Shown: one piece after another, positions 5,098-60,484 of the stretch
Numbering within the stretch: the first letter of the stretch is position 1
Layout of the letters: the number at the start of each line of letters is the position of its first letter
Origin: Bedellia somnulentella
Taxonomy: Eukaryota > Arthropoda > Insecta > Lepidoptera > Bedelliidae
DNA length: 64,000 nt
Assembly: GCA_963576735.1 (NCBI GenBank)
Contig: OY755196.1
Coordinates: forward strand, 7,979,912 to 8,043,911
Direction: 5' to 3'
Program-made: the position numbers and the translations under genes
Notes under the pieces: generated by a model
Told to the model about the DNA's origin: nothing
Databases searched by the model: none
The model's input: the letters and a program-made list of their open reading frames with translations, nothing else

Positions 5098-5204
5098 TTA
5101 AAGCTACGGAAATTAAATAAAATGATTTGATTTTGTGTAATGTCAGCGCTCATAATAATATTTAATAACATAATACTATTTATGATTGTAATAATGATAA
5201 TTAC

Positions 5205-5472
5205 ATACATACATATTCTCACGCCGTTAGTTCCCATTGGGGTAGGCAGAGACTATCGATCGCCACTTTGTACGATCCTGGCAAACCTCTCTAGCTTCAT
5301 TCACATCCATCAATCTTTTCATACATGCTCTTTTATTCTTTGTACTTCGGACACCTGCCTTTTTGAGCACATTTTCTATTTGATCTAAATGTGTCCTCCG
5401 AGGTCGTCCTCTACTAACATTACCTTCCACATTGGCTCTATATATCTCTTTCACCACTTTACTGTCAATTAC
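5205..5472 (-). mobile_element. RTE LINE 3' fragment
   Basis: Reverse-strand copy of the last ~260 bases of the RTE element at 3403-5097. It begins in this strand with a TACATACATACATATTCTCACG tail followed by GGGGTAGGCAGAGAC, and it encodes the same C-terminus ending SAYPNGN. It is head-on to the longer copy only ~110 bases away, so the two 3' tails face each other. Confidence 0.88.
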
Positions 5473-16160: not shown

Positions 16161-19100
16161 TGGCGTAGGGATGTGACGACCCCACCGCCCATTGTTGGAA
16201 TGGCATGATGACATGTTTACCAGCTTGCCATTCCAGCAATGCAAATAGTCAGCGCTTGAGTTGGTAGGTGTTGACCGTGTCTACAAACTGGTCTCAGCGC
16301 AAAAAAGAGTAATAACGGTCTCCCCGGGGCAAGTGAGCGAAACCCCGGGTGAATCTTCGCTCATCGTAAAATGCAAGACGATATAAACGATGAGCGCATA
16401 GGGCCGCTCCCCAGGGGCTAGCGCTGGGGCGCGTCTGGAGCTGGGGCTGGACGTGGCAGCATGCGGTCCCCCAGCCGCCGCGGAAAGCGATTGGGGAACA
16501 GTCTCCCTGGATTTGGATATGGTGAGGAGCGCACTCGAAGAGACGATCCTGGAATATCGCCAAGTGCCTCTCGAAAGGAGGCCAAGGCTGCCCCGAGTTC
16601 CTCTCAGCATCAAGGTTCGGGATGTCGTTGAGGCCGTCAATAACATGCTGCCCTCATTTTTAGAGAGCAGCATGGACCTTTGGGATACGGATTCAATTCT
16701 CTTTGGCGCCGCAATGACAGTTTGTCAATTTGTCGGCGTCAGGATGCCGCCAACAAGAGCTGGTGGCTCCCGCCAGGCTGGCAGTACTAGTCCCAGGACT
16801 AGAACTAGACCAGCCTGGATGAGGCGGATTGAAGGCCGTATCACAAGGGCCAGGGTCCTCATCGGCAAACTGACCAGCTTCAGATCAGGCAACAATAGGC
16901 CGAGGGTGGTGCGCTTCGTCAGGGAGGCATTCCCTGGTGAGAATGTCTTTGACAACTCACCGGAGTTTGCCTGTAGACTGGTGGAGCGCATCGATGATCT
17001 GAAGCAGAAGATCGCTGCTTGGGGTAAGCGAATTAGGCGATATTCTGAAAGGGTAAAGAGGTACCAACAGAATCGTCTCTTCATGAGTGACCAGAAGAAG
17101 TTCTACAGAACTTTGGAGCGTCCCGACGTGGTTACGACAGGTCAGCGACCGGAAAAAGCCGATGTAGTAGCCTTTTGGCGTGGGCTTTGGTCGCTGCCTG
17201 TTGATCACGAAGAGGGCCGATGGTTCGAGGCGGTCGAGGGAGCGTGCGAGCCCATAGCGCCCATGAACCCCGTCAACATATCCGAGGAGGATGTGGTGGC
17301 TGCGATCCGTAAGGCTCCGAACTGGAAAAGTCCGGGGCCGGACGGATTGCACCATTACTGGTTGAAGGGGTTCACGCGCTGTCACGCTACTCTCGCCCGT
17401 CAGTTCCAAAGCGCCCTCGAGAGTGGGACGCTCCCGAACTTCTTAACTACTGGGGTCACTCATTTAGCTCCAAAGAGCGATGCTACCGCGGATCCATCAC
17501 AATACCGCCCCATTACTTGTCTTTGTACAATTTACAAGACCTTGACATCCGTTCTGAGCTCCAAGATTACTCAACACATTGTTGATAACAATGTGATATC
17601 TGGAGCTCAGAACGGATGTAGGGGCGGTAGTCGCGGTAGCAAGGAGCTGCTCCTCATCGACGCGGTCGTAGGCCAACTGGTCAAACGCAACCGTCGGAAC
17701 TTCTCCGCTGGCTGGATAGACTACAGGAAGGCGTTCGATTCGGTACCTCATACATGGCTCATGAGGGTCCTCGAGCTGTACAAAATTGATAGTGCAGTTC
17801 GACACTTCCTCGGGCAATGTATGGGGTGCTGGAGAACGATCCTGAGTTTAGACGGTCAGCGGATGACGGACGCGGATGACCAAATTGATATAAGGCGAGG
17901 GATTTTCCAGGGCGATTGCCTGAGTCCAGTTTGGTTTTGTTTGGCCCTGAATCCTCTAAGTACACTCTTGGAGAATTCAGGGACAGGCTTTCAGTTTCGG
18001 AGAGGCGGACCACGCTTGCCTCATCTCCTTTACATGGATGACCTGAAGCTTTACGCCCCTACGGCTGAAAGATTGGCGGAGCTACTGACGATCACTAACG
18101 ATTTCAGTGGTTCCGTCAAGATGGAGCTCGGGGTCGATAAGTGTGCGGTCATTCATGTCGAGAAGGGGCATGTCGTGCACTCTGATGGTGTCGATGTCGG
18201 CACCAATCATTTGAGGGCACTCTCCGAGGCTGAAACATACCGGTATCTGGGCATGTCACAAACCATCGGTGTGAAGGTGGCAGACGTGAAACAGGGTGTT
18301 TGCGAGGAGTTTTATGAACGCCTGAAAAGTGTGCTTAATAGCTACTTGTCAGGCGTTAATAAGATCCGAGCCATTAACTCCTGGGTCATGCCTGTACTGA
18401 TGTACACGTTTGGCGTGCTCAGATGGACTCAGTCCGAACTAGACGCTCTGGACAGACGAGTCCGCACGACGATGACCTCTCATCGAATGCATCATCCGCG
18501 ATCGTCGGTTATGAGATTGTATATCCCGCGGAAGTGTGGTGGTCGAGGCCTCTTGAGTGCCAAAACCATGCACAACCGCGAGGTATGCAACCTCAGAAAC
18601 TATTTTTTGACGATGACGGATGATAGTATTCGGGGAGAGGTGGTCGCTAGTGATAAAGGACTGACTCCCTTATCGTTGGCCTCACAGGATTGGCGAACCC
18701 CGGAGGTACTTAGCACCTCTGATCGGGAGTCCGTATGGAAAGAGAAGGAGCTGCACGGGAGGTTTTACAAGGTACTTCACGAACCTTTCGTGGACCGTAA
18801 AGCCTCCCTGCATTGGCTGCGTTTCGGGGACCTCTTTGGGGAAACCGAAGGTTTTGTCTGTGCAATACAAGACCAGGTTATCGAGACGCGGAACTATCGG
18901 AAATACATCCTAAAGGACGGTACCACAGACATCTGTCGAGCATGTGGCCGTCCCGGAGAGTCACTTAGGCATGTTATTTCCGGTTGTTCGGCTCTTGCTA
19001 ACACTGAGTACTTGCACAGACACAACCAAGCAGCCAAAATCCTGCATCAGGAGCTCGCTCTGAAATACGGACTCTTGCAACAGAGGCTGCCGTATTACAA

Positions 19101-19635
19101 GTATCTGCCGGAGCCAATCCTACAAAACGACCGTGCCAAAATCTATTGGGACCGATCCGTTATCACGGACAGGACTATTCTAGCGAATAAGCCTGATATC
19201 GTGGTATGGGATCGGTCGCAGTCGAGGGTATTTCTAGTGGATGTCACTATCCCTCATGACGAGGGTCTCGTGAAAGCCGACACCGAGAAGCGTCGGAAAT
19301 ATCTCGATCTGGCTCACGAGATCACCGACATGTGGGGTGTGACTTCGACAGAAATAATCCCAATTGTTTTGTCCGCGAACGGGTTAATTCCAACCAGTCT
19401 CGCGACCAACTTGAGGCGGTTGGATTTCTGTGGCGTGTCGGTTCCAGCACAGATGCAGAAAGCGGTGCTGCTCGATACGGCTCGGATCGTCCGTCGGTTC
19501 TTGAACTTGACTCCCTGACCCCGACCGACTGTGCTCTTGTCGGGGAGTACCGCCTCTCCCATTTAAAATTCTAATTTTCTGTTTCGGCCATGGGAGAGGC
19601 GAGAAACTAAAGAATGTTCCCAAAATAATAATAAA
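16161..19635 (+). mobile_element. R4/Dong-clade LINE inserted in a TAA repeat
   Basis: Runs from TGGCGTAGGGATGTGACG, directly after (TAA)n at 16139-16160, to GTTCCCAAAATAATAATAAA at 19617-19635. Known Dong elements insert into TAA repeats, and both flanks here are TAA repeats. The 5' leader (16161-16401) contains stops; the 3' UTR is about 115 bases. A 5'-truncated relative of the last ~48 bases sits in another (TAA)n at 52799-52848. Confidence 0.9.
16453..19518 (+). CDS. Dong-like retrotransposon protein: RT plus restriction-like endonuclease
   Basis: A single ~1000-residue ORF. The N-terminal ~250 residues are basic with no zinc finger that I can see. The RT has SPGPDGLHHYWL, PSQYRPITCL, WIDYRKAFDSVPH (palm A) and LLYMDDLKLYA (catalytic DD). 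Near the C-terminus a CX2CX8HX4C knuckle (CRACGRPGESLRHVISGC) precedes a restriction-like endonuclease with KPDIVVWD and FLVDVTIPHD, the arrangement of R2/R4-type site-specific LINEs. The frame is open from 16402 after a TAG at 16399. The listed start is a GTG; the first in-frame ATG is at 16519, so the true start is unsettled. No stop or frameshift is visible across the domains. High CpG content contrasts with the AT-rich host LINE. Confidence 0.93.
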   Translation: MAACGPPAAAESDWGTVSLDLDMVRSALEETILEYRQVPLERRPRLPRVPLSIKVRDVVEAVNNMLPSFLESSMDLWDTDSILFGAAMTVCQFVGVRMPPTRAGGSRQAGSTSPRTRTRPAWMRRIEGRITRARVLIGKLTSFRSGNNRPRVVRFVREAFPGENVFDNSPEFACRLVERIDDLKQKIAAWGKRIRRYSERVKRYQQNRLFMSDQKKFYRTLERPDVVTTGQRPEKADVVAFWRGLWSLPVDHEEGRWFEAVEGACEPIAPMNPVNISEEDVVAAIRKAPNWKSPGPDGLHHYWLKGFTRCHATLARQFQSALESGTLPNFLTTGVTHLAPKSDATADPSQYRPITCLCTIYKTLTSVLSSKITQHIVDNNVISGAQNGCRGGSRGSKELLLIDAVVGQLVKRNRRNFSAGWIDYRKAFDSVPHTWLMRVLELYKIDSAVRHFLGQCMGCWRTILSLDGQRMTDADDQIDIRRGIFQGDCLSPVWFCLALNPLSTLLENSGTGFQFRRGGPRLPHLLYMDDLKLYAPTAERLAELLTITNDFSGSVKMELGVDKCAVIHVEKGHVVHSDGVDVGTNHLRALSEAETYRYLGMSQTIGVKVADVKQGVCEEFYERLKSVLNSYLSGVNKIRAINSWVMPVLMYTFGVLRWTQSELDALDRRVRTTMTSHRMHHPRSSVMRLYIPRKCGGRGLLSAKTMHNREVCNLRNYFLTMTDDSIRGEVVASDKGLTPLSLASQDWRTPEVLSTSDRESVWKEKELHGRFYKVLHEPFVDRKASLHWLRFGDLFGETEGFVCAIQDQVIETRNYRKYILKDGTTDICRACGRPGESLRHVISGCSALANTEYLHRHNQAAKILHQELALKYGLLQQRLPYYKYLPEPILQNDRAKIYWDRSVITDRTILANKPDIVVWDRSQSRVFLVDVTIPHDEGLVKADTEKRRKYLDLAHEITDMWGVTSTEIIPIVLSANGLIPTSLATNLRRLDFCGVSVPAQMQKAVLLDTARIVRRFLNLTP

Positions 19636-25292: not shown

Positions 25293-25893
25293 TGTGGGCT
25301 ACACCTACATCATTATTATAAATATATTATATATATATAATACTTAAACATACAAACATAAATATTTATAATATACATTTAATTTAATTAATATATCATA
25401 TTAATTTGGTTGTATTTATATTTACTTTTATTATAAACATTGCGATCGATACTAGTCGGTCGATAATCGATTTGCATATCGATAAGCGGTTCGATGGGAT
25501 GTGACCCCGTCACTAGTTTTAACAACTTTTATTCTCGCGGGTAGTTTTGAGCTACCGCGATGATGGTTCGAGAAACGTTGCCTAACCAGTCGTGAATCAC
25601 TTATCGCGATACGTACAGCATTCGTATTATTCTCGTGTTATTTCTAATTAAGCTTAATCCGTGTTGAATATTGTTAATGTCGTTAACTGTTACTTCTTTA
25701 TTCGCTATTGTATGTGACTGTCTTCCTAATTTGTGTCTGTGTCTGAGCTGTGTAATCTTTCTTCATTGTGCCTTCTAAAATTCATAGTGTGTGTCGGTGA
25801 AAAATAAACCTGTCAAACTGTAAGTGACTTTATTATTTTATATTCGCCGACCGGTGAGATAACTCATTACATCTTCACCCCCCTCACGCTATA
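25293..25893 (+). repeat. 5' LTR of Gypsy (CsRn1/Kabuki-type) element
   Basis: 601 bp beginning TGTGGGCTACACC and ending CCCTCACGCTATA. It matches the 3' LTR (29881-30479) with about five differences (a TA dinucleotide, and substitutions near 25491, 25658, 25682 and 25737), roughly 99% identity. Very similar LTRs mean a recent insertion, since the two copies are identical at integration. Confidence 0.93.
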
Positions 25894-25911
25894 TTGGTGA
25901 CACCGACGTGA
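25894..25911 (+). other. tRNA primer-binding site of the Gypsy element
   Basis: TTGGTGACACCGACGTGA immediately follows the 5' LTR. A TGGTGAC-start sequence of this form is the usual minus-strand primer site in insect Gypsy elements; the matching tRNA was not identified. The gag ATG overlaps its last base. Confidence 0.75.
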
Positions 25912-26801
25912 TGGACAGAGAAGAAGAATTCAGAGATGCACATGGCGTGGTGACGTCATTACCGACCAGCCGTGCAGGCACTAGTGATGGGAACGAGTCG
26001 ATGAAACATATCGATGTTTTTAAAGTTAGTGCACGACTTCCACCTTTTTGGCCCGAAGAGCCTGAAATATGGTTTTCCCAGGTCGAGGGACAATTCGCAA
26101 TTTCAGGAATTTCTAGCGATGTAACCAAATTTCACTATGTCATTAGCCAGCTGGATAACCAATTTTCCAGGGAAGTCAAGGATATTATTATTAATCCACC
26201 AGCATCCGATAAATATCAGAAGCTTAAATCAGAATTGATTAAAAGATTGACCGCATCCAGAGAGGTGAAAATCAAGCAGTTATTGATGCACGAAGAGCTC
26301 GGCGATCGTAAGCCATCACAGTTCTTACGACATCTTAAAAGCCTGGCTGGCATCAATGTTCCAGACGATTTTGTGAAGACGATTTGGATAAGCCGACTTA
26401 CACACGGGATTCAAACGGTGTTAGCAGGTCAACTGTCCACATCTTCCATCGATGATCTGGCAGACTTAGCCGATCGTGTACAGGATATTGCTACTCCTTC
26501 ACCGGTTGTCGCATCTACGAGTGCTAGTCAAGGAAGTCAAGTTTCGGCGATAGAAATGCTAACCAAAGAAGTGGCTGAGCTGCGGAGACAATTCGAGAAG
26601 CTCGCTTCAGAGAGGAACAGCAGACCACACAACAGATCGAATAGGTCAGCGCGTCCTGGTTCTTCATCTAGATCGAAACGCTCAAATTCGAACTACAGAA
26701 AATACCCCATTTGCTGGTACCATACCAAGTTTGCAGAAAAGGCCAGCAAATGCATATCTCCGTGTGATTACCAGGCGGGAAACGCCAGGGGCGGTCGATA
26801 G
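25911..26801 (+). CDS. gag: Gypsy gag (CsRn1/Kabuki type, CHCC finger)
   Basis: About 296 residues starting at the ATG that overlaps the primer-binding site. Capsid-like sequence: [20 protein letters not shown], then [20 protein letters not shown] and [20 protein letters not shown] helical [18 protein letters not shown] and an Arg/Ser-rich linker lead to [18 protein letters not shown], a Cys-His-Cys-Cys finger in place of the retroviral CCHC. That finger defines the CsRn1 clade to which Bombyx Kabuki belongs. It builds the intracellular particle and binds RNA. The stop overlaps the pol frame, with pol in the -1 frame, so pol is probably made by frameshifting. Confidence 0.92.
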
Positions 26802-29800
26802 TGGCGACTGCAGACTACCCTTCAACTTCTACTGGTCGCCTATTTGTGACGGATCGAGCCTCGAAGACGCAGTTTCTGGTCAATACAGGAAGCGACCTCT
26901 GTGTTTTCCCCCGGTCCATGCTTCGTGATCGTCGTGCTAAGACTGACTATAACTTGTGTGCTGCAAATGGATCTAGTATTTCTACATATGGTTATGTACA
27001 TTTAAATTTAAATTTTGGTTTACGTAGAGAATTTAGTTGGCGTTTTGTTGTTGCGGATGTAAGTAAGCCAATTATAGGTGTTGATTTCTTAAATCATTAT
27101 TATTTGATTGTTGATTGCCGCAACAAACGTTTAATAGATAGCACAACTTCTCTTTCGTCTATAGCTAAATTAGTTAAGTGTAATAATATAGCATCTGTAA
27201 AAATCATGACTGGTGAGACTCGGTTTCATAAAATTCTCGACGAATTCCCCGAGATTACTCGACCAACTGGTATTCATCGCAATATTACACACCAAACAGT
27301 GCACCACATACGAACAACTCCAGGCCCACCAGTATCTTGCACTCCTCGTCGTTTGGCGCCTGACAAATTGAAAATTGCTCAACAGGAGTTCCAGGCCATG
27401 CTTGCTAATGGTACAGCCCGTCCTTCGGAGAGTCCGTGGGCTTCCCCACTCCATCTAACTCCCAAAAAAGATAATGGTTGGCGACCTTGCGGTGATTACC
27501 GCATGCTTAACGCCCGTACAATACCCGATAGTTATCCGATCAAACACATCAATGACTTTTCACATAGCCTTGTTGGTTGCAAAGTTTTTAGTAAAATTGA
27601 TTTACTGAAAGCCTACAACCAGGTGCCCATTTTTGAGCAAGATATATCGAAAACAGCCATCACGACACCGTTTGGCTTGTTCGAATTCCCCTATATGACC
27701 TTCGGACTCCGAAACGCAGCCCAAACTTTTCAACGGTTGATGGATGAAATCACTAGAGGACTTGATTTTACATATTCGTATTTGGATGACGTCTTGGTGT
27801 TCTCACGTGACCATCATAGTCACGAAGAGCACCTACGTCAAATTTTCACAAAGTTGAAAGAGTACGGTATGTCTGTAAATCCAGAAAAGTGTGTTTTTGG
27901 CGTATCTGAGATATCATTTTTAGGTTACTCTATAAATGAAAATGGTTCCAAGCCGCTCGATTCTAAAGTAGAGGTCATAAAAGAGTTTCCTGTGCCTAAA
28001 ACTGTACGTCAGCTTAGAGCGTTTTTAGGCATGATAAATTTTTACAGGAGATTTATCCCTGGTGCAGCTGAAATTCAAGCACCTTTAAATAATTTGTTAA
28101 CAGGTTCGATGAAAGGAGCACACCCAGTTTTTATTGAAGGTGAGGCCCTTCAAGCTTTTAATGCCTGTAAAGATAGCCTTGCTAATGCTGCTTTACTAGC
28201 TCACCCGGACTGTACGGTTCCACTTGCTTTAGTGACAGACGCTTCTGATAAGGCAATCGGTGCAGTCCTGCAACAACTTAAAAATAATTCCTGGCAACCA
28301 TTAGCTTTCTTTTCCCGAAAGTTAAGTCCATCGCAGGTGAAGTATTCGCCATACGATAGGGAACTTCTTGCCATATATGAAGGCATTAAGTATTTCCGAC
28401 ATATGCTTGAAGCCCGCCATTTTATTGTCTATACGGACCATAAACCGATTAGTTTCGCATTCCATGAAAGGAAAAAAAACTGTTCGCCTAGGCAGTATAG
28501 ACATCTGGACTTTATTTCCCAGTTCACTACTGACATTCGGCACATCTCTGGCAAAGACAATATTGTTGCTGATGCTTTGTCGAGAATAGAAGAACTAAGA
28601 GCTCCAGTCAGTCTAGAAACTTTAGCTAGCACTCAAGAATCCGATCCAGAGCTAGACAAATTGTTAATCGAAGGATCATCATCATTGCGTCTTGAGAAAA
28701 TGACTGTTCCTGGTAGTCGTGTTCCCCTGTACTGCGACGTCAGTACACCGACTACTAGGCCTTACGTCCCCAAATTTCACCGCAGGCAGGTTTTTGAAAG
28801 CTTGCATTCTTTAAGTCATCCCGGACCTAACGCGTCTGCAAAACTTGTTGCAGAACGGTTTGTTTGGCCCGAGATAAGGAAAAACTGTAGAGAGTGGGCA
28901 CGAGCTTGCATAGCTTGTCAAAAAGCTAAAGTTACTCGCCATGTTTCCTCCCCTCTAGGTTCTTTTCCCTTGCCTCGGACTCGTTTCAAACAAATCCATA
29001 TCGATTTGATAGGTCCCTTGCCAGTCTCAGAAGGTAATCGATATTGTCTGACAGCCGTAGATCGATTTACTCGATGGCCGGAAGCTATACCGATAGGTGA
29101 TATAACCGCTGAAACCGTTGCCAAAGCATTAATTTCAGGTTGGATTTCTCGTTTCGGTTGTCCAACGGACATCACCACCGACCGGGGACGCCAATTTGAA
29201 TCCGCTTTGTTTTCCGCTTTGGCAAAAATAGCTGGCTTCCAACATAAGCGCACCACGGCCTACCATCCTGCGTGCAATGGTATGATCGAAAGATTTCACC
29301 GTCAACTCAAAGCTGCAATTGTTTGTCATGGAAACAGTAAATGGTCAGAGTCCTTGCCATGGGTTTTATTAGGAATCCGAACTGCTTTTAAGGAGGATAT
29401 CCAAAGTTCTTCGGCAGAACTAGTTTATGGAGAACCACTGCGCTTACCGGGCGAATTTTTCGAATCCGCTGAAGCTGGTTCTACTGACACTTCCGATTTT
29501 TCAGTTCGCCTTAAGGACATAACATCAAAATTACGACCTTTCCCCGCTTCACGTCATTGTAAGCCTAAAGTTTTCATATATAAAGAATTAGCCACCAGTG
29601 ATCAAGTTTTCCTCCGAGAAGACGCATTACGTGGCGCATTACAACCAACGTACTTAGGCCCATATAAAGTTTTAGCGAGGGACGATAAAACATTTAAAAT
29701 ACTTCGAAACGGAAAGGAAATTACAGTATCGATAGATCGCGTAAAACCAGCCTTCATACTTAACGACCAGACCGAATCACAATCAATTCCAGAAATGTCG

Positions 29801-29860
29801 AAAAATCGCGTCACACGTTCTGGGCGGCAAGTCAGATTCCCAGATTATTATCGCCCATGA
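26801..29860 (+). CDS. pol: Gypsy pol: protease, RT, RNase H, integrase; protease active site changed
   Basis: An uninterrupted ~1000-residue polyprotein. The protease has [13 protein letters not shown] where the catalytic motif should be DTG (AAT in place of GAT), so self-processing is probably lost. The RT has [13 protein letters not shown] and [11 protein letters not shown] (YLDD). RNase H has [26 protein letters not shown] and VYTDHKPI. Integrase has an HHCC zinc domain (ending CIACQKAK) and a DDE core: [31 protein letters not shown]. No envelope gene follows; a GAAGGGGGTGA purine tract abuts the 3' LTR. The listed start is the frame opening; the true entry is by frameshift from gag. One substitution separates it from an apparently intact element. 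Confidence 0.95.
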
Positions 29861-29868
29861 TGGTCTCT

Positions 29869-29880
29869 GGAAGGGGGTGA
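29869..29880 (+). other. Polypurine tract of the Gypsy element
   Basis: GGAAGGGGGTGA lies directly before the 3' LTR and is the expected plus-strand primer. Confidence 0.75.
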
Positions 29881-30479
29881 TGTGGGCTACACCTACATCA
29901 TTATTATAAATATATTATATATATAATACTTAAACATACAAACATAAATATTTATAATATACATTTAATTTAATTAATATATCATATTAATTTGGTTGTA
30001 TTTATATTTACTTTTATTATAAACATTGCGATCGATACTAGTCGGTCGATAATCGATTTGCATATCGATAAGCGGTTCGGTGGGATGTGACCCCGTCACT
30101 AGTTTTAACAACTTTTATTCTCGCGGGTAGTTTTGAGCTACCGCGATGATGGTTCGAGAAACGTTGCCTAACCAGTCGTGAATCACTTATCGCGATACGT
30201 ACAGCATTCGTATTATTCTCGTGTTATTTCTAATTAAGTTTAATCCGTGTTGAATATTGTTAATGTCATTAACTGTTACTTCTTTATTCGCTATTGTATG
30301 TGACTGTCTTCCTAAATTGTGTCTGTGTCTGAGCTGTGTAATCTTTCTTCATTGTGCCTTCTAAAATTCATAGTGTGTGTCGGTGAAAAATAAACCTGTC
30401 AAACTGTAAGTGACTTTATTATTTTATATTCGCCGACCGGTGAGATAACTCATTACATCTTCACCCCCCTCACGCTATA
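29881..30479 (+). repeat. 3' LTR of Gypsy element
   Basis: 599 bp, TGTGGGCTAC to CACGCTATA, ~99% like the 5' LTR. The flanks (ATGCATT on the left, GGTACG on the right) show no target duplication, which is unusual for such a young element. Confidence 0.93.
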
Positions 30480-36216: not shown

Positions 36217-36314
36217 CTAGAAAGGTTTGTAGGGTTGTACAAAATGGCGATGAAAAGTCTCTGCCTACCCCAATGGGAAATAACGGTCTGAGTATTGTAT
36301 GTATGCATGTCTTT
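36217..36314 (+). mobile_element. RTE LINE 3' fragment
   Basis: AAAGCTAGAAAGGTTTGTAG through GTCTCTGCCTACCCCAATGG to GTATTGTATGTATGCATG, a ~100-base copy of the RTE end with its tail. Confidence 0.8.
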
Positions 36315-42720: not shown

Positions 42721-43074
42721 CAAAGTGAAGTCGCAATTTGTTTGCAATCCACAAAATTAATTAGGGCGCTTTGTTTCGAATAATTTTGTCTTTAATGAGA
42801 GGTCTTTGAGCGAAGGTGTGGTTGAAATAACTTGCATATTAAAATATACTACCGGTGTGAAGTTAGCGGCCGATTCCAGCGGCCGATTATAACCCGACCA
42901 AATTAAAAAGTTTCAATATAGAAAGGTGTAAAACCAGGAATTTCAGCATCTAAGAAGCCTCATTGCCACATAAATAGCTGCATTAACACTCTAGGCCATT
43001 AACCTGCCCGAACGAGAACCTTAAACCCATGAAACAAAATGTAGAGCAGCCACCCTAGATGAATTATTAAAAAC

Positions 43075-46000
43075 TTTTCTGACATGAGCCCCAAGCTTCT
43101 ACACACCTTAATTATGGTATCAAAAGAACCGTATAAAATAGTTCTACAGGATGCATACCAAAATATTTTAATATGAAGAGATTTTAACCCTTCAATCGCA
43201 AGTTTAACCCTCAGCGGCCGATTTCAGCGAAATGAATAGTTGTGATAAAATCTGTCCAAAGCTTCTACACACCTTGAGAGTGGTATCAAAAGAACCGTAT
43301 TAAATAGCTCTACCGGATGCATACCAAAATATTTGAATATGAAGAGCTTTTAACCCTTCAATCACACAATATAGCAATTTAACGTACAAAAAAAAGATAA
43401 ATATTTTCTGACACGAACCCAAAGCTTCTACACACCTTGAGTGTGGTATCAAAAGAACCGTATTAAATAGTTCTACAGGATGCATACCAAAATATTTTAA
43501 TGTGAAGAGATTTTAACCCTGCAATCATACGATAGAGCAATTCCGCGTACAAAAAAATGATAAATATTTTCTGACACGAACCCAAAGCTTCTACACACCT
43601 TGAATATAGTATCAAAAGAACCGTATTAAATAGCTCTACAGGATGCATACCAAAATATTTGAATATGAAGAGATTTTAACCCCTCAATCGCAAGTTTAAC
43701 CCTCAGCGGCCGATTTCAGCGAAATGAATAGTTGTGATAAAATCTGTACAAAGCTTCTACACACCTTGAATATGGTATCAAAAGAACCGTATTAAATAGC
43801 TCTACAGAAAGCATACCAAAATATTTTAATATGAAGAGATTTTAACCCTTCAACCATACGATAGAGCAATTTCACGTACAAAAAAATTATAAATATTTTC
43901 TGACACGAACCCAAAGCTTCTACACACCTTGAGTATGGTATCAAAAGAACCGTATTAAATAGCTCTACAGGATGCATAGCAAAATATTTGAATATGAAGA
44001 GATTTTAACCCCTCAATCGCAAGGTTAACCCGCAGCGGCCGATTTCAGCGAAATGAATAGTTGTGATAAAATCTGTCCAAAGCTTCTACACACCTTGAGT
44101 ATGGTATCAAAAGAACCGTATTAAATAGTTCTACATGATGCATACCGAAATATTTGAATATGAAGAGATTTTAACCCCTCAATCGCAAGTTTAACCCTCA
44201 GCGGCCGATTTCAGCGAAATGAATAGTTGTGATAAAATCTGTCCAAAGCTTTTACACACCTTGAATATGGTATTAAAAAAACCGTTTTAAATAGCTCTAC
44301 AGAATGCATAGCAAAATATTTTAATATGAAGAGATTTTAACCCTTCAACCATACGATAGAGCAATTTCACGTACAAAGAAATGATAAATATTTTCTGACA
44401 CGAACCCAAAGCTTCTACACACCTTGAGTATGGTATCAAAAGAACCGTATTAAATAGTTCTACAGGATGCATACCAAAATATTTTAATGTGAAGAGATTT
44501 TAACCTTTCAATCATACGATAGAGCAATTCCGCGTACAAAAAAATGATAAATATTTTCTGACACGAACCCAAAGCTTCTACACACCTTAAGTATGGTATC
44601 AAAAGAACCGTATTAAATAGCTCTACAGGATGCATACCAAAATATTTGAATATGAAGAGATTTTAACCCCTCAATCGCAAGTTTAACCCTCAGCGGCCGA
44701 TTTCAGCGAAATGAATAGTTGTGATAAAATCTGTACAAAGCTTCTACACACCTTGAATATGGTATCAAAAGAACCGTATTTAATAGCTCTACAGATAGCA
44801 TACCAAAATATTTTAATATGAAGAGATTTTAACCCTTCAACCATACGATAGAGCAATTTCACGTACAAAAAAATTATAAATATTTTCTGACACGAACCCA
44901 AAGCTTCTACACACCTTGAGTATGGTATCAAAAGAACCGTATTAAATAGCTCTATAGGATGCATAGCAAAATATTTGAATATGAAGAGATTTTAACCCCT
45001 CAATCGCAAGGTTAACCCGCAGCGGCCGATTTCAGCGAAATGAATAGTTGTGATAAAATCTGTCCAAAGCTTCTACACACCTTGAGTATGGTATCAAAAG
45101 AACCGTATTAAATAGTTCTACATGATGCATACCGAAATATTTGAATATGAAGAGATTTTAACCCCTCAATCGCAAGTTTAACCCTCAGCGGCCGATTTCA
45201 GCGAAATGAATAGTTGTGATAAAATCTGTCCAAAGCTTTTACACACCTTGAATATGGTATTAAAAAACCGTTTTAAATAGCTCTACAGAATGCATAGCAA
45301 AATATTTTAATATGAAGAGATTTTAACCCTTCAACCATACGATAGAGCAATTTCACGTACAAAGAAATGATAAATATTTTCTGACACGAACCCAAAGCTT
45401 CTACACACCTTGAGTGTGGTATCAAAAGAACCGTATTAAATAGTTCTACCGGATGCATACCAAAATATATGAATATGAAGAGCTTTTAACCCTTCAATCA
45501 CACAATATAGCAATTTAACGTACAAAAAAATGATAAATATTTTCTGACACGAACCCAAAGCTTCTACACACCTTGAGTGTGGTATCAAAAGAACTGTATT
45601 AAATAGTTCTACAGGATGCATACCAAAATATTTGAATATGAAGAGCTTTTAACCCTTCAATCACACAATATAGCAATTTAACGTACAAAAAAATGATAAA
45701 TATTTTCTGACACGAACCCAAAGCTTCTACACACCTTGAGTGTGGTATCAAAAGAACCGTATTAAATAGCTCTACAGGATGCATAGCAAAATATTTTAAT
45801 ATGAAGAGATTTTAACCCTTCAACCATACGATAGAGCAATTTCACGTACAAAAAAATGATAAATATTTTCTGACACGAACCCAAAGCTTCTACACACCTT
45901 GAATATGAAATCAAAAGAACCGTATTAAATAGCTCTACAGGATGCATACCAAAATATTTGAATATGAAGAGATTTTAACCCCTCAATCGCAAGTTTAACC

Positions 46001-46595
46001 CTCAGCGGCCGATTTCAGCGAAATGAATAGTTGTGATAAAATCTGTACAAAGCTTCTACACACCTTGAATATTGTATCAAAAGAACTGTTTTAAATACCT
46101 CTACAGAATGCATAGCAAAATATTTTAATATGAAGAGATTTTAACCCTTCAACCATACGATAGAGCAATTTCACGTACAAAAAAATGATAAATATTTTCT
46201 GACACGAACCCAAAGCTTCTACACACCTTGAGTGTGGTATCAAAAGAACCGTATTAAATAGTTCTACAGGATGCATACCAAAATATTTGAATATGAAGAG
46301 CTTTTAACCCTTCAATCACACAATATAGCAATTTAACGTACAAAAAAATGATAAATATTTTTTGACACGAACCCAAAGCTTCTACACACCTTGAGTGTGG
46401 TATCAAAAGAACCGTATTAAATAGTTCTACAGGATGCATACCAAAATATTTTAATGTGAAGAGATTTTAACCCTTCAATCATACGATAGAGCAATTCCGC
46501 GTACAAAAAAATGATAAATATTTTCTGACACGAACCCAAAGCTTCTACACACATTGAGTGTGGTATCATAAGAACCGTATTAAATAGCTCTACGC
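43075..46595 (-). repeat. Left arm: tandem ~164-bp repeats, two unit types
   Basis: About 21 units of 163-166 bp. All share AAAGCTTCTACACACCTTGA, GTATCAAAAGAACCGTATTA, CTACAGGATGCATACCAAAA and GAAGAGATTTTAACCC. Type A adds AGCGGCCGATTTCAGCGAAA and GTTGTGATAAAATCTG; type B adds CGATAGAGCAATTTCACGTA and AATATTTTCTGACACGAACC. A and B alternate irregularly, and about 986 bp (six units) is repeated as a block (43455-44440 versus 44441-45425). The recurring 61-residue frames (MHPVELFNTVLLI...) on the minus strand are a by-product of the repeat. Confidence 0.92.
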
Positions 46596-48434
46596 ATCTT
46601 GTGTTTTTTGTTACAAAGTTGCCATTTGCCAATATTTTTTAAAAATTTGGAACTAAATGATTATTCTTAAAAATTGTGCAGTTTTTTTTTATTATTTAAT
46701 GCAATAGATTTTAAGCGAAAGCAATAATTTTCAAAAGTAACATAATTAGGGTCATTATTTAAAGATTTTATGTCAGATTGAGCAATATCTGAATTTCGAA
46801 CACTCTCAAAATCTTCAGAATCCGATGAATTAAATAATTTCTGTGCATTAACTACATCCTGAGATACCCAAGGGGATTGTAATATTTATATATAAGTTTT
46901 TAATATAATTTTCCATAAAAGCTAAATTTGTACCTGAAAATAATTTAGCCATCATATCTTTCAATATTTTCTTTTCTTCGCACCTGACATCGCTATTATC
47001 AATATCTTTGTCCATATTTTTCATAATGTGTGCACAACAAAGAAATAAAGGCGTAATATTTTTTGGTATCTGTGCTTGGAGCATATTTTCAAATATTGGT
47101 TCAGGGTTAATTTGTTGAATGCTTCACATGCGGCGTTTATTAATGCGAAAGAAAAATCGGTTACCACTCCCGAAAAACGGGCCAGGCATTACTTTTTTCA
47201 GAAAATTTCTTAAAGTCATTCAAATATGGTATTAGTGTCATGTTTTACCGATGTAAATAAGAATAAAGGGCAAATCCTTTGATTTAAACTTATGACACCT
47301 GCGTACAAAAACGTTCTCATCTTTTTTGTTTCTGTATTAAGTTTTCTCATAACACCACCCGTGGCATCAAAATACAAAGCAGCTTTTCATTAACCTTTTT
47401 TCAAATTACTACTTGTATTGCGCTGTACATTTTTATGCACAAGGGAATTTTCATGATCGTTTTGATATAAATATAGATCAAGAACATCATGTTTGTTGCG
47501 GTAATTTATGGCTAATGCCTCAGATCTATTTTTTCGGAAAACATCGTCAGATTTAATGTTTTCTAAATTTTTGTCAATTCTTAGTTTTTTGCCTTATTCA
47601 CAGACTTCAGTTGTTTTTGGTTAATTATAAAAGATTTTTCGTGTAAAAGTTGGTTTTTAGTATATTTTTTTCAATCCCTCTCACTTGATTTGTACACATT
47701 TCATTGTGACAAAAATTCTCACTTTCGCTTAGTACCGTGACTTTCGTATGTTTAATTTTATTTTGAATGACTTACAATGTTGTTGCTTGCATCTAGCAGT
47801 AACAATTATTTCTTTATTTTTTTAGATATTTAACATTTTTAAATACTAACAAACAAGTATTATTAAAATTCTTATTTATAAGTTTGCGTAGTGCATAAGT
47901 ATAGTTAGGTGTTTAGTTTATTGTTTTGGTTGAACATATTATCGTATACTAAGGGATCAATTGTGGATTTACCTTTTTTTTTATGCATTTTTTTATTTAG
48001 ACAAGTTTGCTGCGTTTTGAGTTTATTTTGGTATTATAAGCATTGAGTTTTCTCAACTGGATATCCAAATCACTAAAAGAGGAATGGAGAGGAAGGAATT
48101 GCATAAGGGTCTTTTTATTATCAAGATGATGGTCAATTGGTCTTGTGATGTCTATTCACCATTAGACCATTTTTGAGTTTCTTTTACAAAATGATGATCA
48201 TTTTGACATAGATACAGATTTAAAATAATCTTTTTTGTTGAGGTCATTGCTGATGCCTCAGACCTGATTTTTGAAAACCTTAGACATTATTGATTATAAT
48301 ATATTAAAAGTGTCGCCTTATTTGCAGACATCAGTTATTTCACTCAACTATAAACGTTCGTCGTAACAAAAAATATATCAATTATTTTCAGTTCGTCACC
48401 GCTGAACTGGTTGTTGTAATTTTATTTCCTAAAC
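46596..48434. other. Spacer between the inverted arrays
   Basis: AT-rich spacer with a MULE transposase remnant on the minus strand (46650-47830) and, at 48090-48380, a second diverged copy of the transposase segment seen at 47400-47680, in the same orientation (shared GATGATC.TTTTGA, GCTGATGCCTCAGA, CCTTATTTGCAGAC-like blocks). 47830-48090 shows nothing recognisable. Confidence 0.6.
46650..47830 (-). pseudogene. MULE-type transposase remnant (Phantom/NOF-like?)
   Basis: Read on the minus strand from ~47830 the order is: a Cys/Lys-rich N-terminal piece near 47780; EALAINYRNKHDVLDLYLYQ; ALYFDATGGVMRKL near 47360 (first Asp of the DDE triad in DATGG); TFLYAGVISLN; VVTDFSFALINAACEAFN near 47140 (second Asp); then LFLCCAHIMKNMDKDID and a tail ending KSIALNN. 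I recall DATGG...VTDFS.ALIN from MULE-like transposases abundant in insects. Stops near 47395 and 47215 and frameshifts near 47110 and 46880 make it non-functional. The third catalytic residue was not located. The assignment rests on motif memory, not a search. Confidence 0.68.
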
Positions 48435-48520
48435 TAGTTGACCCGACAGACTTCGTACTGTAAATTTGCTTATGCTAAACTTTAGGCATTTGTTCCGATA
48501 TATCTAAGCTGAATCAGACT
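48435..48520 (-). mobile_element. Helitron 3' end fragment
   Basis: ACTAGTTGACCCGACAGAC on the plus strand is the reverse of a Helitron terminus (GTCGGGTCAACTAG before T). The ~85-base remnant sits exactly between the spacer and the right array. Confidence 0.55.
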
Positions 48521-51500
48521 CTTCATATTCAAATATTTTGGTATGCATCCGGTAGAACTATTTAATACGGTTCTTTTGCTTTGGGTTCATGTCAGAAAAT
48601 ATTTATCATGTTTTTGTACGTGAAATTGCTCTATCGTATGGTTGAAGTGTTAAAATCTCTTCATATTAAAATATTTTGCTATGCATCCTGTAGAGCTATT
48701 TAATACGGTTCTTTTGATACCATATTCAAGGTGTGTAGAAGCTTTGGACAGATTTTATCACAACTATTCATTTCGCTGAAATCGGCCGCTGAGGGTTAAA
48801 CTTGCGATTGAGGGGTTAAAATCTCTTCATATTCAAATATTTCGGTATGCATCATGTAGAACTATTTAATACGGTTCTTTTGATACCATACTCAAGGTGT
48901 GTAGAAGCTTTGGACAGATTTTATCACAACTATTCATTTCGCTGAAATCGGCCGCTGAGGGTTAACCTTGCGATTGAGGGGTTAAAATCTCTTCATATTC
49001 AAATATTTTGCTATGCATCCTGTAGAGCTATTTAATACGGTTCTTTTGATACCATACTCAAGGTGTGTAGAAGCTTTGGGTTCGTGTCAGAAAATATTTA
49101 TCATTTGTTTGTACGTTAAATTGCTCTATTATGTGATTGAAGGGTTAAAATCTCTTCATACTAAAATATTTTGGTATGCATCCTGTAGAACTATTTTATA
49201 CGGTTCTTTTGATACCACACTCAAGGTGTGTAGAAGCTTTGGGTTCGTGTCAGAAAAAAATTTATCATTTTTTTGTACGTGAAATTGCTCTATCGTATGG
49301 TTGAAGGGTTAAAATCTCTTCATATTAAAATATTTTGCTATGCATTCTGTAGAACTATTTAAAACGGTTCTTTTGATACCATATTCAAGGTGTGTAGAAG
49401 CTTTGGACAGATTTTATCACAACTATTCATTTCGCTGAAATCGGCCGCTGAGGGTTAACCTTATGATTGAGGGGTTAAAATCTCTTCATATTCAAATATT
49501 TTGCTATGCATTCTGTAGAGCTATTTAATAAGGTTCTTTTGATACCATATTCAAGGTGTGTAGAAACTTTGGACAGATTTTATCACAACTATTCATTTCG
49601 CTGAAATCGGCCGCTGAGGGTTAAACTTGCGATTGAGGGGTTAAAATCTCTTCATATTAAAATATTTTGCTATGCATCCTGTAGAACTATTTTATACGGT
49701 TCTTTTGATACCACACTCAAGGTGTGTAGAAGCTTTGGGTTCGTGTCAGAAAATATTTATCATTTTTTTGTACGTGAAATTGCTCTATCGTATGGTTGAA
49801 GGGTTAAAATCTCTTCATATTCAAATATTTTGGTATGCATTCTGTAGAGCTATTTTATACGGTTCTTTTGATACCATATTCAAGGTGTCTAGAAGCTTTG
49901 GACAGATTTTATCACAACTATTCATTTCGCTGAAATCGGCCGCTGAGGGTTAAACTTGCGATTGAGGGGTTAAAATCTCTTCATATTAAAATATTTTGCT
50001 ATGCATCCTGTAGAGCTATTTAATACGGTTCTTTTGATAGCAAACTGAAGGTGTGTAGAAGCTTTGGGTTCGTGTCAGAATATATTTATCATTTTTTTGT
50101 ACGTGAAATTGCTCTATCGTATGGTTGAAGGGTTAAAATCTCTTCATATTAAAATATTTTGCTATGCATTCTGTAGAGCTATTTAAAACGGTTCTTTTGA
50201 TACCATATTCAAGGTGTGTAGAAGCTTTGTACAGATTTTATCACAACTATTCATTTCGCTGAAATCGGCCGCTGAGGGTTAAACTTGCGATTGAGGGGTT
50301 AAAATCTCTTCATATTCAAATATTTTGGTATGCATCCTGTAGAGCTATTTAATACGGTTCTTTTGATACCATATTCAAGGTGTGTAGAAGCTTTGGGTTC
50401 GTGTCAGAAAATATTTATCATTTTTTTGTACGCGGAATTGCTCTATCGTATGATTGCAGGGTTAAAATCTCTTCACATTAAAATATTTTGGTATGCTTTC
50501 TGTAGAGCTATTTAATACGGTTCTTTTGATACCATACTTAAGGTGTGTAGAAGCTTTGGACAGATTTTATCACAACTATTTATTTCGCTGAAATCGGCCG
50601 CTGAGGGTTAACCTTGCGCTTGAGGGGTTAAAATCTCTTCATATTCAAATATTTTGCTATGCATCCTGTAGAGCTATTTAATACGGTTCTTTTGATACCA
50701 TACTTAAGGTGTGTAGAAGCTTTGGACAGATTTTATCACAACTATTTATTTCGCTGAAATCGGCCGCTGAGGGTTAACCTTGCGCTTGAGGGGTTAAAAT
50801 CTCTTCATATTCAAATATTTTGGTATGCATTCTGTAGAGCTATTTTATACGGTTCTTTTGATACCATATTCAAGGTGTGTAGAAGCTTTGGACAGATTTT
50901 ATCACAACTATTCATTTCGCTGAAATCGGCAGCTGAGGGTTAAACTTGCGATTGAGGGGTTAAAATCTCTTCATATTAAAATATTTTGCTATGCATCCTG
51001 TAGAGCTATTTAATACGGTTCTTTTGATAGCAAACTGAAGGTGTGTAGAAGCTTTGGGTTCGTGTCAGAATATATTTATCATTTTTTTGTACGTGAAATT
51101 GCTCTATCGTATGGTTGAAGGGTTAAAATCTCTTCATATTAAAATATTTTGCTATGCATTCTGTAGAGCTATTTAAAACGGTTCTTTTGATACCATATTC
51201 AAGGTGTGTAGAAGCTTTGTACAGATTTTATCACAACTATTTATTTCACTGAAATCGGCCGCTAGGGTTAACCTTGCGATTGAAGGGTTAAAATCTCTTC
51301 ATATTCAAATATTTCGGTATGCATCATGTAGAACTATTTAATACGGTTCTTTTGATACCATACTCAAGGTGTGTAGAAGCTTTGGGTTCGTGTCAGAAAA
51401 TATTTATCATTTTTTTGTACGTGAAATTGCTCTATCGTATGGTTGAAGGGTTAAAATCTCTTCATATTAAAATATTTTGCTATGCATTCTGTAGAGCTAT

Positions 51501-51717
51501 TTAAAACGGTTCTTTTGATACCATATTCAAGGTGTGTAGAAGCTTTGTACAGATTTTATCACAACTATTCATTTCGCTGAAATCGGCCGCTGAGGGTTAA
51601 ACTTGCGATTGAGGGGTTAAAATCTCTTCATATTCAAATATTTTGGTATGCATCCTGTAGAGCTATTTAATACGGTTCTTTTGATACCATATTCAAGGTG
51701 TGTAGAAGCTTTGGGTT
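48521..51717 (+). repeat. Right arm: tandem ~164-bp repeats, inverted relative to left arm
   Basis: About 20 units, reverse complement of the left-arm units (CTCTTCATATTCAAATATTT, TATGCATCCTGTAGAGC, GAAGCTTTGGGTTCGTGTCA or GGACAGATTTTATCACAACT). Types A and B again alternate. The first unit (48546-48680) has an internal deletion of ~28 bases. A block of ~990 bp recurs (marker GATAGCAAACTGAAGGTG at ~50036 and ~51026), the same six-unit period as in the left arm. The last unit is interrupted at GGGTTCGT by an RTE fragment. Confidence 0.92.
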
Positions 51718-51785
51718 CGTGGCGATCGATAGTCTCTGCCTAGCCCAAAGGGAATTGACGGCGCGAGTATATGTATGTATGTTAG
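51718..51785 (+). mobile_element. RTE LINE 3' fragment ending the right array
   Basis: GGCGATCGATAGTCTCTGCC to CGCGAGTATATGTATGTATG: the last ~65 bases of the RTE family. The array does not resume after it, so the insertion coincided with, or preceded, loss of the outer end of the arm. Confidence 0.85.
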
Positions 51786-51892
51786 TAATCGGTCCAGCTT
51801 TTGACGCATGCACTCATGAATTATTTACTTATTTACCAGCTGTTTGTGCCTTGTTTTACGAAATACTTTGGTATGTTGACTTTATATATTAC

Positions 51893-52480
51893 TAGCGACC
51901 CGCCCCGGCTTCACACGGGTGCAATGCAAAATATACCTACTACAGCATGTCCTTATACACAACGTTCTCAGCTTTTTTGTCATTAGCCAATACAAACATG
52001 TTTTGCTTAGACGTTACTCTTGACAGCGCGACATATAATTGGCCATGTGAAAAACACTCAACATTCAAGTCTAATCCTGCAACGTTAAAAGTTTAACCCT
52101 GTTTGGTCATTGCAAAAGATATCTTTACCGGAAATTGTAGGCGTTTAAATTGGAACGGTAAATCTGATGGTATCAGAGGAATTCGGGGAATTAGTACATC
52201 TTCTCCGGTACCACATCCGGTGAGTATTGTGCACTCTATCATGAATTTTTTTAATGATTTTATCAGCAAACGTGTGCCATTGCAGAGCTTAGGAGGATTC
52301 AGATTTCTTAATAAAATAACAGGACAACCTACTTTCAATTCCATTTTATGAGGAGGGAGTCCAGAAGGGTTCAAAGAATTAAGAAATGTACAGCTTCTTC
52401 CGAGTCGAGAACAGTATCCACCGAGTAGTATATTTGCGTCGGCGTATCAATTTTTGCAAGAATGAAGTTGTTTGCCTTAT
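51893..52480 (-). pseudogene. Helitron PIF1-like helicase, C-terminal fragment with Helitron 3' end
   Basis: Helitron transposases are Rep/helicase proteins for rolling-circle transposition; this is the last ~190 residues. On the minus strand: NSLNPSGLPPHKMELKVGCP, NLNPPKLCNGTRLLIKSL, VLIPRIPLIPSDLPFQFKRL, QFPVKISFAMT, then ECFSHGQLYVALSRVTSKQN and a natural stop after YKDML. About 40 bases later the element closes ACCCGTGTGAAGCCGGGGCG GGTCGCTAG before T, with an ACCCG/CGGGT stem. Decay: a one-base frameshift near 52390, loss of ~4 residues at the usual T.NKAQGQT motif, and a TAA in place of a Gln codon near 52095. It fixes the family identity of the other CTAG-ended repeats in the window. 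Confidence 0.9.
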
Positions 52481-58500: not shown

Positions 58501-58516
58501 TCCCACAATAATATTA

Positions 58517-58798
58517 AATACATACATACATATACTCACGCAATTAATTCCCATTGGGGTAGGCAGAGACTATCGATCGCCACTTTGTACGATCCTGACA
58601 AACCTCTCTGGCTTCGTTTACATCCATCAATCTTTTCATACATGCTCTTTTATTCTTCATACTTCGGACGCCAGCCTTTTTGAGCACACTCTCAATTTGG
58701 TCCAAGTGTGTTCTCCGTGGTCGTCCTCTACTAACATTACCATCCACACTATCTCTATAGATCCCTTTTACCAATTTTCTATCATCCATCCTCAGAAA
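58517..58798 (-). mobile_element. RTE LINE 3' fragment
   Basis: ACATACATATACTCACGC tail and GGGGTAGGCAGAGACTATCG, running to MDDRKLVKGIYRDSVDGN in translation. Closest to the copy at 3403-5097. It is preceded in frame by a short hydrophobic leader (58799-58852). Confidence 0.88.
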
Positions 58799-59165: not shown

Positions 59166-60484
59166 CCAGGCTACTCAGAAAGTATTTCGAAAAAAGGTTT
59201 TAATGTATGAAACACTGGCCGATTGTAATGTATACTGAAAATATGAGTCTTAATAAATAAAAAAAGGTACGTTCCAATTTTTAAATTTCCCTCTTTATTT
59301 TTTACAAGCTATTTTAAATTGTCGTGTCTTACTAAAAAATGAATCTGAGCCGCGTACATTTTCGCGCTATGATTTTTTACGATTTCAAATGTCGCTTAAA
59401 ACCAGACGAATCATACGATAGACTTCAAATGGCGTTTATGGATGAAAGGCCTTCCAAGGCAACCGTGTATCGTTGGTATAACGAATTCAAGCGTGGTCGA
59501 TTAACTTTGCGGGATGAAGAAAGAAGTGGTCGCCCTCTAACGGCTGTTACGGATGAAAACGTGGTGGAAGTGAAAAATTTAATTCATGACAATAGGCGAA
59601 TAACGTCTCTAGAGATTCAACACATTATGCAGATTGGATCGGGAAGCGTTCATGAGATTTTACACGAACATCTTCACGTGAGGAGGATAGTTTCACGCTG
59701 GGTGCCACACAACCTCACCGAGGCACAGAAACAGGACCGGGTGGAATGGTGTCGTGATATGATTAATAAATTTGATGCTGGCTCGTCTCGGCGTGTTTAC
59801 AACATTGTTACAGGTGATGAGTCCTGGATTTATCAATACGATCCAGAAACGAAGCACCAGTCGACGGTTTGGGTATTTCAAAACGAAGCGACCCCTACTA
59901 AAGTGAAGAGATCTAAAAGCGGTGGGAAGATTTTGATCGCAAGTTTTTTCAATATGACTGGGTATTTGGTGTCAATTCCTTTACAAGATCAAAGAAGTAC
60001 TAACGCAGACAGTATACTACTAAATGCTTGCCAGTAGTTTTCTCAGTTGTGAGCAACAATCGACCAAACACAAGCCTCCGCGGGCTACTGCTTCACCACG
60101 AAAAGGCGCCCGCTCACACCGCGCTCAAAACGACGGACTTCCTGAACAGCACGCCGGTCTAGACCTAACTCTAGTTAGCTAACTCTTGGGTCACCCTTCT
60201 TACAGCCCTGACCTGGCACCGTGTGACTTCTTTTTATTCCCTAAAATAAAAAATCAACTCAAAGGGATACAATATTCATCGCCGGAAGATGCGCTGTCAG
60301 CGTTTCAGCGGGCTGTAAATGAGGTGTCTGCGGCGGACTGGAAAAAGTGTTTCGAAAACTGGTTTAGACGTATGAAACTTTGTATAGATGCTGGTGGAGA
60401 GTACTTTGAAAAGATTTAATAAAAACATTTTTACCCATAGAACATTTTTTTTTTATTTTCGCAAAATTTTCTGCGTGTCCCACG
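59166..60484 (+). mobile_element. mariner element, degenerate
   Basis: 1.3 kb, the usual mariner size, flanked by TA on both sides. The terminal inverted repeats of ~28 bp are imperfect: left CCAGGCTACTCAGAAAGTAT, right (reverse complement) CGTGGGACACGCAGAAAATT. Contains one decayed transposase gene. Confidence 0.85.
59339..60419 (+). pseudogene. mariner transposase, two frameshifts, catalytic site changed
   Basis: Cut-and-paste transposase with an N-terminal paired-type DNA-binding region (KATVYRWYNEFKRGR, EERSGRPLT, SVHEILHEHLHVRRIVSRWV) and a DDD catalytic domain. First Asp: IVTGDESWIYQYDPETK (intact). The second motif, normally HHDNAPAHT, reads HHEKAPAHT at ~60094-60117, so the catalytic Asp is Glu. 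Third: SYSPDLAPCDFFLFP (intact). The coding sequence runs through three frames: 59339-60037, a middle piece around 60091, and 60186-60419, giving at least two frameshifts. Fossil, not active. Resembles the mauritiana/cecropia group but subfamily not determined. Confidence 0.92.

Follow-up and report, generated by a model that had tools for sequence, protein, structure and literature searches.

A family of foldback transposons with satellite-sized inverted arms and an IS256/MULE-like transposase in Bedellia somnulentella

What kind of structure places two long arrays of satellite-like repeats in opposite orientation around the remains of a transposase gene? We addressed this question for a stretch of 64,000 nucleotides from Bedellia somnulentella (GenBank assembly GCA_963576735.1, contig OY755196.1, positions 7,979,912 to 8,043,911 of the forward strand; G000:C28:7979912-8043911 of the 549-Mb, 486-contig assembly), hereafter termed the window. 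A sequence-only reading of this DNA had proposed a foldback element enclosing a MULE transposase remnant. We are confident that the window copy is a dead, right-truncated, non-autonomous foldback transposon of IS256/MULE type. A complete element of its family very probably consists, in order, of a 9-bp target duplication, a terminal domain beginning ACCGGTGTGAAGTTAGCGGCCGATT, an array, an optional transposase core, the inverted array, the inverted terminal domain, and the duplication again.

The ends of the element provide the principal evidence. Sequence from window positions 42851-43090 recurred, inverted, at the far ends of other copies, which are dispersed over many contigs. The 27-bp end was found 194 times in the genome when up to three mismatches were allowed, versus 0 times for the reversed pattern, and a 601-bp piece of the spacer gave 33 genome matches. 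The surroundings of ten further copies were retrieved, two of these were extended, and the units, the spacer, and the left flank were placed on them. Fourteen head-to-head pairs of ends were formed, thirteen from the terminal-domain search plus the C25 copy with its right end from the fetched surroundings, and 12 of these were flanked by exact 9-bp duplications; the C22 pair agreed at 7 of 9 positions, the C393 pair at 3 of 9, and none of the 14 agreed over 10 bp. Left flanks mispaired with the right flanks of other copies, used as the control, matched at no more than 6 of 9 positions in 182 comparisons. Ten of at least 15 complete GATTTC pairs were also tested, and exact duplications were present in all (9 bp in nine, 8 bp in one). 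The same search listed at least five more pairs with exact ends, at C3:7.46 Mb and on C5, C29, C50, and C69. For the entire set of 24 pairs, the duplications were exact over 9 bp in 21, over 8 bp in one, and at 7 of 9 positions in one, with none in the remaining pair. The sequence-only reading had called for copies that retain both outer ends and are flanked by target duplications of 8-10 bp, and exact duplications of 8 or 9 bp were thus seen in 22 of 24 pairs. These lengths agree with those made by Mutator/MULE elements (8-11 bp, typically 9). Elements of the family have moved as units, leaving target duplications, and they have the defining foldback features: long inverted termini that contain tandem repeats and differ in length from end to end and from copy to copy.

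Self-comparison of the window confirmed the two inverted arrays of ~164-bp units (Table 1). All of the arm-to-arm matches among the 60 longest self-alignments listed were inverted, at identities of 79-90% and lengths of up to 3.2 kb. The left arm contains 21 full units and one partial unit arranged head-to-tail, and the right arm contains 19. The units are of two types that have ~100 bp in common and differ in the remainder: type A (166 bp) contains CAGCGGCCGATTTCAGCG, whereas type B (163 bp) does not. Both unit lengths had been recognized from the sequence, but the strict alternation ascribed to them does not hold, as the order in the left arm is ABBABAABBABAABBBBABBB. Similarly, the arms do enclose a spacer, but with a measured length of 1984 bp rather than 1.8 kb, and the DATGG and VTDFSFALIN motifs are present in a minus-strand frame. 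Recognizable segments of the transposase remnant lie in different frames and include the two D motifs (DATGG and VVTDFS), CCAH, and the ENY E-motif; a Pfam search of these broken pieces returned a chance match only. The limits of the element were revised by comparison with other copies, which set the left outer boundary at 42851, where the copy starts ACCGGTGTGAAG. Within the left terminal domain, the first ~60 bp, in which GCGGCCGATT occurs twice, recur in all three subfamilies seen. On the right, the array ends at 51721, where it abuts a fragment of a palindromic repeat (51719-51782), and the right terminal domain was not found between 51701 and 64000, where the best candidate was a 12-bp match (E value 0.31).

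Table 1. Parts of the element in the window and the repeat fragment at its broken right end.
Feature	Position	Strand	Basis
Left terminal domain	42851-43067	+	Inverted counterpart at outer ends of other copies, adjoining target duplications
Left arm, A (166-bp) and B (163-bp) units in tandem, A outermost	43068-46593	+	Self-comparison
Spacer, 1984 bp	46594-48577		98% identity to part of the C12 core
Transposase remnant, internally deleted	46594-47903	-	Match carries 27 stops
Second partial, degenerate transposase segment	48179-48277	-	54% identity to C19-frame residues 15-49 (E 2e-4)
Right arm, inverted array of A and B units, without terminal domain	48578-51721	-	Self-comparison
Fragment of another interspersed palindromic repeat	51719-51782	+	Matches 5033-5092, 5203-5266, 36245-36305, 58520-58583

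Transposons with these ends reach 31 kb. Three of them, C14a (1.1 kb), C26b (2.3 kb), and C26a (3.7 kb), consist of terminal domain, array, inverted array, and terminal domain with no spacer. By eye, the central junctions of these copies and of C1 differ from one another, and therefore the spacerless copies and C1 probably arose separately. At the other extreme, C12 measures 16.4 kb (arms 6.0 and 2.0 kb) and C18 measures 31.3 kb (arms 2.7 and 14.05 kb), and retroelement frames were noticed by eye within the C18 core. C12, C18, and C19 share a core with two tail-to-tail transposase copies that are ~91% alike, the C19 and C18 cores being 99.5-100% identical to that of C12 in long matches. In two long copies, stop-free transposase frames of 1068 and 1140 amino acids lie between the ends. 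The window spacer corresponds to one end of the core shared by C12, C18, and C19 and is joined directly to the opposite arm, as would be expected if the window copy were a core-deletion derivative. A separate 0.64-kb copy (L077, G000:C9:14606960-14607690) has short inverted ends and no array. By eye, its flanks show the duplication AATGTTATT, and it carries sequence resembling the ~183-bp unit described below; it is a possible starting point of that array.

Several observations weigh against this account of the family. The window copy shows no target duplication of its own, its right end being missing. The terminal-domain search gave at least 42 matches (best 40 of 203 candidates scored), unpaired ends included. 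Finally, the ends at G000:C393:29092-48779 lie 19.7 kb apart without a target duplication; this pair may belong to two separate elements or reflect a rearrangement or a join made in assembly.

On the basis of weak Pfam scores, motifs, and fold, the transposase appears to be IS256/MULE-like, in keeping with the class suggested from the motifs in the spacer. Its relatives, which occur in an aphid and two beetles, fuse an IS256/MULE-like transposase to PHD, Ulp1, and sometimes YqaJ domains, with the protease part following the catalytic part in one frame. To our knowledge, such a combination of a MULE-like catalytic part with PHD, Ulp1, and, in some relatives, YqaJ looks unusual for an animal cut-and-paste element, and no description of the fusion was found in the titles and abstract openings of the open-licence literature. 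No relatives in viral contigs were found by a search with the transposase alignment. Among the relatives, a YqaJ-like nuclease domain was seen in all of P0007-P0012 (1434-1487 amino acids), with Ulp1 protease detected in P0008 and P0010. The class assignment has to be read against three results. The PF10551 MULE scores fall under the Pfam cut-off (E values of 0.059 for the C19 frame and 0.0013 for P0002). The structural match to ISCth4 has a high root-mean-square deviation, falls in a range where a match may reflect no more than a widespread arrangement, and does not appear in the 50 Foldseek rows listed. Pfam detected no Ulp1 in the C19 frame or P0001, and for the Bedellia somnulentella genome this domain rests on alignment with P0002.

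These results bear on whether the element belongs to the Phantom subclass (FLYWCH plus MULE), like NOF and Tm1. Consistent with such a placement are the foldback form and 9-bp duplications, as in Tm1, whose transposase its authors placed in Phantom according to the available part of their paper (PMC3169594), the aphid and beetle relatives, and the P0002 model, in which a predicted sheet of four strands, with cysteines, close to the N-terminus could be FLYWCH-like. However, Pfam gave no FLYWCH match at E<=1 in P0001 or P0002, and PHD and Ulp1 do not appear in the Phantom description in that part of the Tm1 paper (PMC3169594). A FLYWCH-type match was also absent among the structural matches listed, which are dominated by Ulp1-like chains; this absence excludes nothing. 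We regard membership in Phantom as possible but rather doubtful.

The arms themselves could have grown after insertion, the mobile unit being a short MULE with normal terminal repeats that later underwent satellite expansion. Such growth would fit the unequal arm lengths within C18 and C12, the 0.64-kb C9 copy that lacks an array, and the relationships among units. For 74 of 162 A units and 84 of 189 B units, the nearest neighbor lay solely in the same arm, compared with only 5 of 162 and 5 of 189 for which it lay solely in the opposite arm. Two findings oppose it. The C12 right arm and the outer part of the C18 left arm are colinear and 98.1% identical over the whole 2276 bp of the shorter arm, and this near-identity indicates that the arms travel with the element; in addition, the outermost unit is of type A in 11 of 11 arms tested. 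We therefore consider growth solely after insertion to be unlikely, with length changes after insertion likely superimposed on inherited arms.

The inheritance of arms with the element is itself subject to qualification. For most other arm pairs, stretches with >=95% identity were shorter or absent. For A units, identity averages 0.954 inside an arm, barely more than the 0.951 between the arms of a copy, with 0.933 between copies (the corresponding B-unit values being 0.931, 0.927, and 0.916), and 51 of 162 A units and 63 of 189 B units had their nearest neighbor in another copy alone. Considered together, the unit identities and the nearest-neighbor pattern suggest inherited variation overlaid by recent exchange among the units of an arm, with no strong conversion from one arm to the other.

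We also considered whether the arms, as a general rule, consist of arrayed binding sites for the transposase. A 17-bp match at 94% is shared by the terminal domain and unit A, and GCGGCCGATT persists at 5 places in the diverged C3 array described below. Against this idea, GCGGCCGATT is not extra-conserved in unit A of the window subfamily, where its 18-column window ranks 76 of 149, and it does not occur within the ~183-bp arms of L079. The general rule was rejected on these grounds.

The same ends, sharing a terminus of ~55-60 bp, bound three types of arm: those with the 163/166-bp units of the window, those with a ~70%-identical unit, and those with an unrelated ~183-bp unit. The diverged type is represented by a 29-kb copy on C3, with its arm described from the first 1.5 kb. 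It has the same end (61 bp at 96.7%) followed by a ~165-bp array that is 69-73% identical to the window units in alignments of >=100 bp, and its transposase is 72% identical to that of the window at the DNA level. By blastn, the ~183-bp unit resembles the window units in no more than 8-9-bp words. Among the matches listed (best 18 of 124 candidates scored), it forms opposed arrays in C6 (around the 1140-amino-acid frame), at C3:17.85 Mb, at C25:4.76 Mb, and in C20, and it makes up the arms of a spacerless copy at C3:16.09 Mb that has an exact target duplication and lacks GCGGCCGATT inside its array. The C3 identities show that arms and transposase have diverged about equally in this case, and the unrelated ~183-bp unit on the same ends shows that the arm repeat has been replaced at least once among the subfamilies. 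One copy departs from the foldback plan: at C13:2.87 Mb (G000:C13:2868270-2874364), an exact 9-bp duplication encloses ~183-bp units that are listed on one strand only (2868871-2873806). This copy is perhaps a head-to-tail version, in which case not every copy need be foldback.

Could the arms instead be ordinary satellite, present by chance as two opposed blocks on either side of an old MULE insertion? The window arms considered alone are satellite-like, and the transposase between them is broken. The sequence-only reading had named occurrence of the unit solely as satellite without MULE ends as the result that would overturn it. We found instead that 15 of the 16 unit clusters among those listed (best 39 of 83 candidate regions scored, with poorer matches not placed) carry terminal sequence. 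The exception is C260, which has no terminal-domain match among those listed. In three of the ten retrieved copies (C37, C39, and C68) there was no terminal domain within 20 kb; C39 also lacks units, and the C37 and C68 arrays adjoin transposase sequence. Exact unit 19-mers numbered 758 genome-wide, with 430 in the loci retrieved and 276 not placed. All but 22 of the 430 (those in C37 and C68) were in loci with at least one terminal domain, giving 408, and 52 listed 19-mers on C5 and C6 adjoin a terminal domain. Because independent loci share inverted arms, outer ends, and exact 9-bp duplications, ordinary satellite is refuted as a general explanation and is very improbable. Escape of the repeats into free satellite was not demonstrated: 15 of 16 listed clusters have element ends, and C260, C37, and C68 lack them in the sequence seen. 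Even less credible is an assembly artefact in which a head-to-tail array was joined in inverted orientation, which we reject because, although palindromic arrays are difficult to assemble, mirror arms with matching target duplications recur at many independent loci, mostly on contigs of 12-23 Mb, and the 1.1-, 2.3-, and 3.7-kb copies are short enough for a single long read.

For the foldback transposon, these results are consistent with the following scheme. A MULE-type transposase supplied in trans would recognize the outer ends and possibly also GCGGCCGATT inside type-A units, cut out the element with its arms included, and insert it at a staggered 9-bp site. Unequal exchange would lengthen and shorten the arms, and internal deletions would fuse them, yielding spacerless palindromes repeatedly. 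In the window copy, a core deletion may have left part of the transposase gene, with decay and loss of the right end following. More tentatively, and as a joint claim that we place somewhat short of an even chance, we suggest that one transposase-recognition end serves interchangeable satellite arms, that these arms are maintained in an active foldback lineage, that MULE-PHD-(YqaJ)-Ulp1 transposases form their own subclass, and that foldback transposition both creates and disperses satellites.

Other mobile sequences were noted in the window. A Gypsy-type long terminal repeat (LTR) element at 25293-30479 encloses a 1030-amino-acid reverse transcriptase/RNase H/integrase frame between LTR-like direct repeats (25293-25893 and 29881-30479) of 99.0% identity and appears to be a recent insertion. 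An uninterrupted 1038-amino-acid frame with a reverse transcriptase domain (16402-19518) is probably a non-LTR retroelement. The palindromic interspersed repeat at 4823-5467 and 58507-58793 is the one whose fragment adjoins the broken right end of the foldback element at 51719. Just outside that element, at 51890-52300, a hairpin plus CTAGT on the minus strand, noted by eye beside helicase-like sequence, is a putative Helitron-like 3' end. A 233-amino-acid fragment of a mariner-type transposase (HTH_48) is present at 59336-60037.

The mutual origin of transposons and satellites has mostly been inferred from relics, whereas here at least 22 insertions with exact duplications are found in one genome. 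The family ranges from a 0.64-kb array-less copy to one whose satellite arm is 14 kb long; its ends are shared by two repeat units that are unrelated to each other and by one diverged version, and some copies have long stop-free transposase frames. It thereby allows tests of whether array growth precedes or follows insertion, whether the repeats act as binding sites for the transposase, and at what stage they depart from the element. No description of this foldback family was found in the titles and abstract openings of the open-licence literature, a result that does not show it to be undescribed.

Among known systems, FB/NOF of Drosophila melanogaster has long inverted tandem-repeat arms around a MULE-type coding unit and 9-bp duplications. 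By description, the present elements resemble it in these respects, with the difference that FB arms have much shorter nested repeats. Plant MULEs such as Kaonashi carry Ulp1-like genes, linking MULE to a C48 protease; unlike those, the relatives described here have the protease after the catalytic part in one frame, some with YqaJ. The available part of the Tm1 paper describes a Mutator/foldback element of Meloidogyne with mostly 9-bp duplications, no clear target preference, and composite terminal repeats that, as here, vary in length and are unequal within a copy, but its repeats are ~14 bp, its outer 7-bp motifs are asymmetric, and its transposase is given as FLYWCH plus MULE with PHD and Ulp1 unmentioned (PMC3169594). 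Galileo, of the P superfamily, also has long, repeat-rich terminal inverted repeats, in its case with extra transposase-binding sites, but in the portions of the reports at hand its transposase is P-type with a THAP domain rather than MULE (PMC3688188, PMC4079207). For Tetris of Drosophila virilis, the accessible portion of the description gives a foldback element with a terminal flanking domain, ~220-bp tandem repeats, a middle, and 8-10-bp duplications, whose repeats became satellite arrays and also fill contigs without Tetris ends (PMC4079207), the latter not being demonstrated for the Bedellia somnulentella units. Thus, the general plan and the origin of satellite from a foldback transposon were already published, and of the sequence-only reading the foldback assignment stands. 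The likeness to Tetris is by published description rather than by sequence comparison and lies in the foldback order, the satellite-sized arrays, and a stretch shared by domain and repeat (37 bp in Tetris, 17 bp at 94% here); in the same portion, Tetris has no coding capacity or known transposase and terminal repeats of at most 1.7 kb (PMC4079207), whereas the present copies with exact duplications have arms of up to 14 kb and stop-free transposase frames between like ends. We conclude that, as far as these partial accounts go, FB/NOF, Tm1, and especially Tetris are the closest precedents, and that the present family is distinct from them in its satellite-scale arms with exact duplications, its long transposase frames, the domain set of its relatives, and its unrelated repeats on the same ends.
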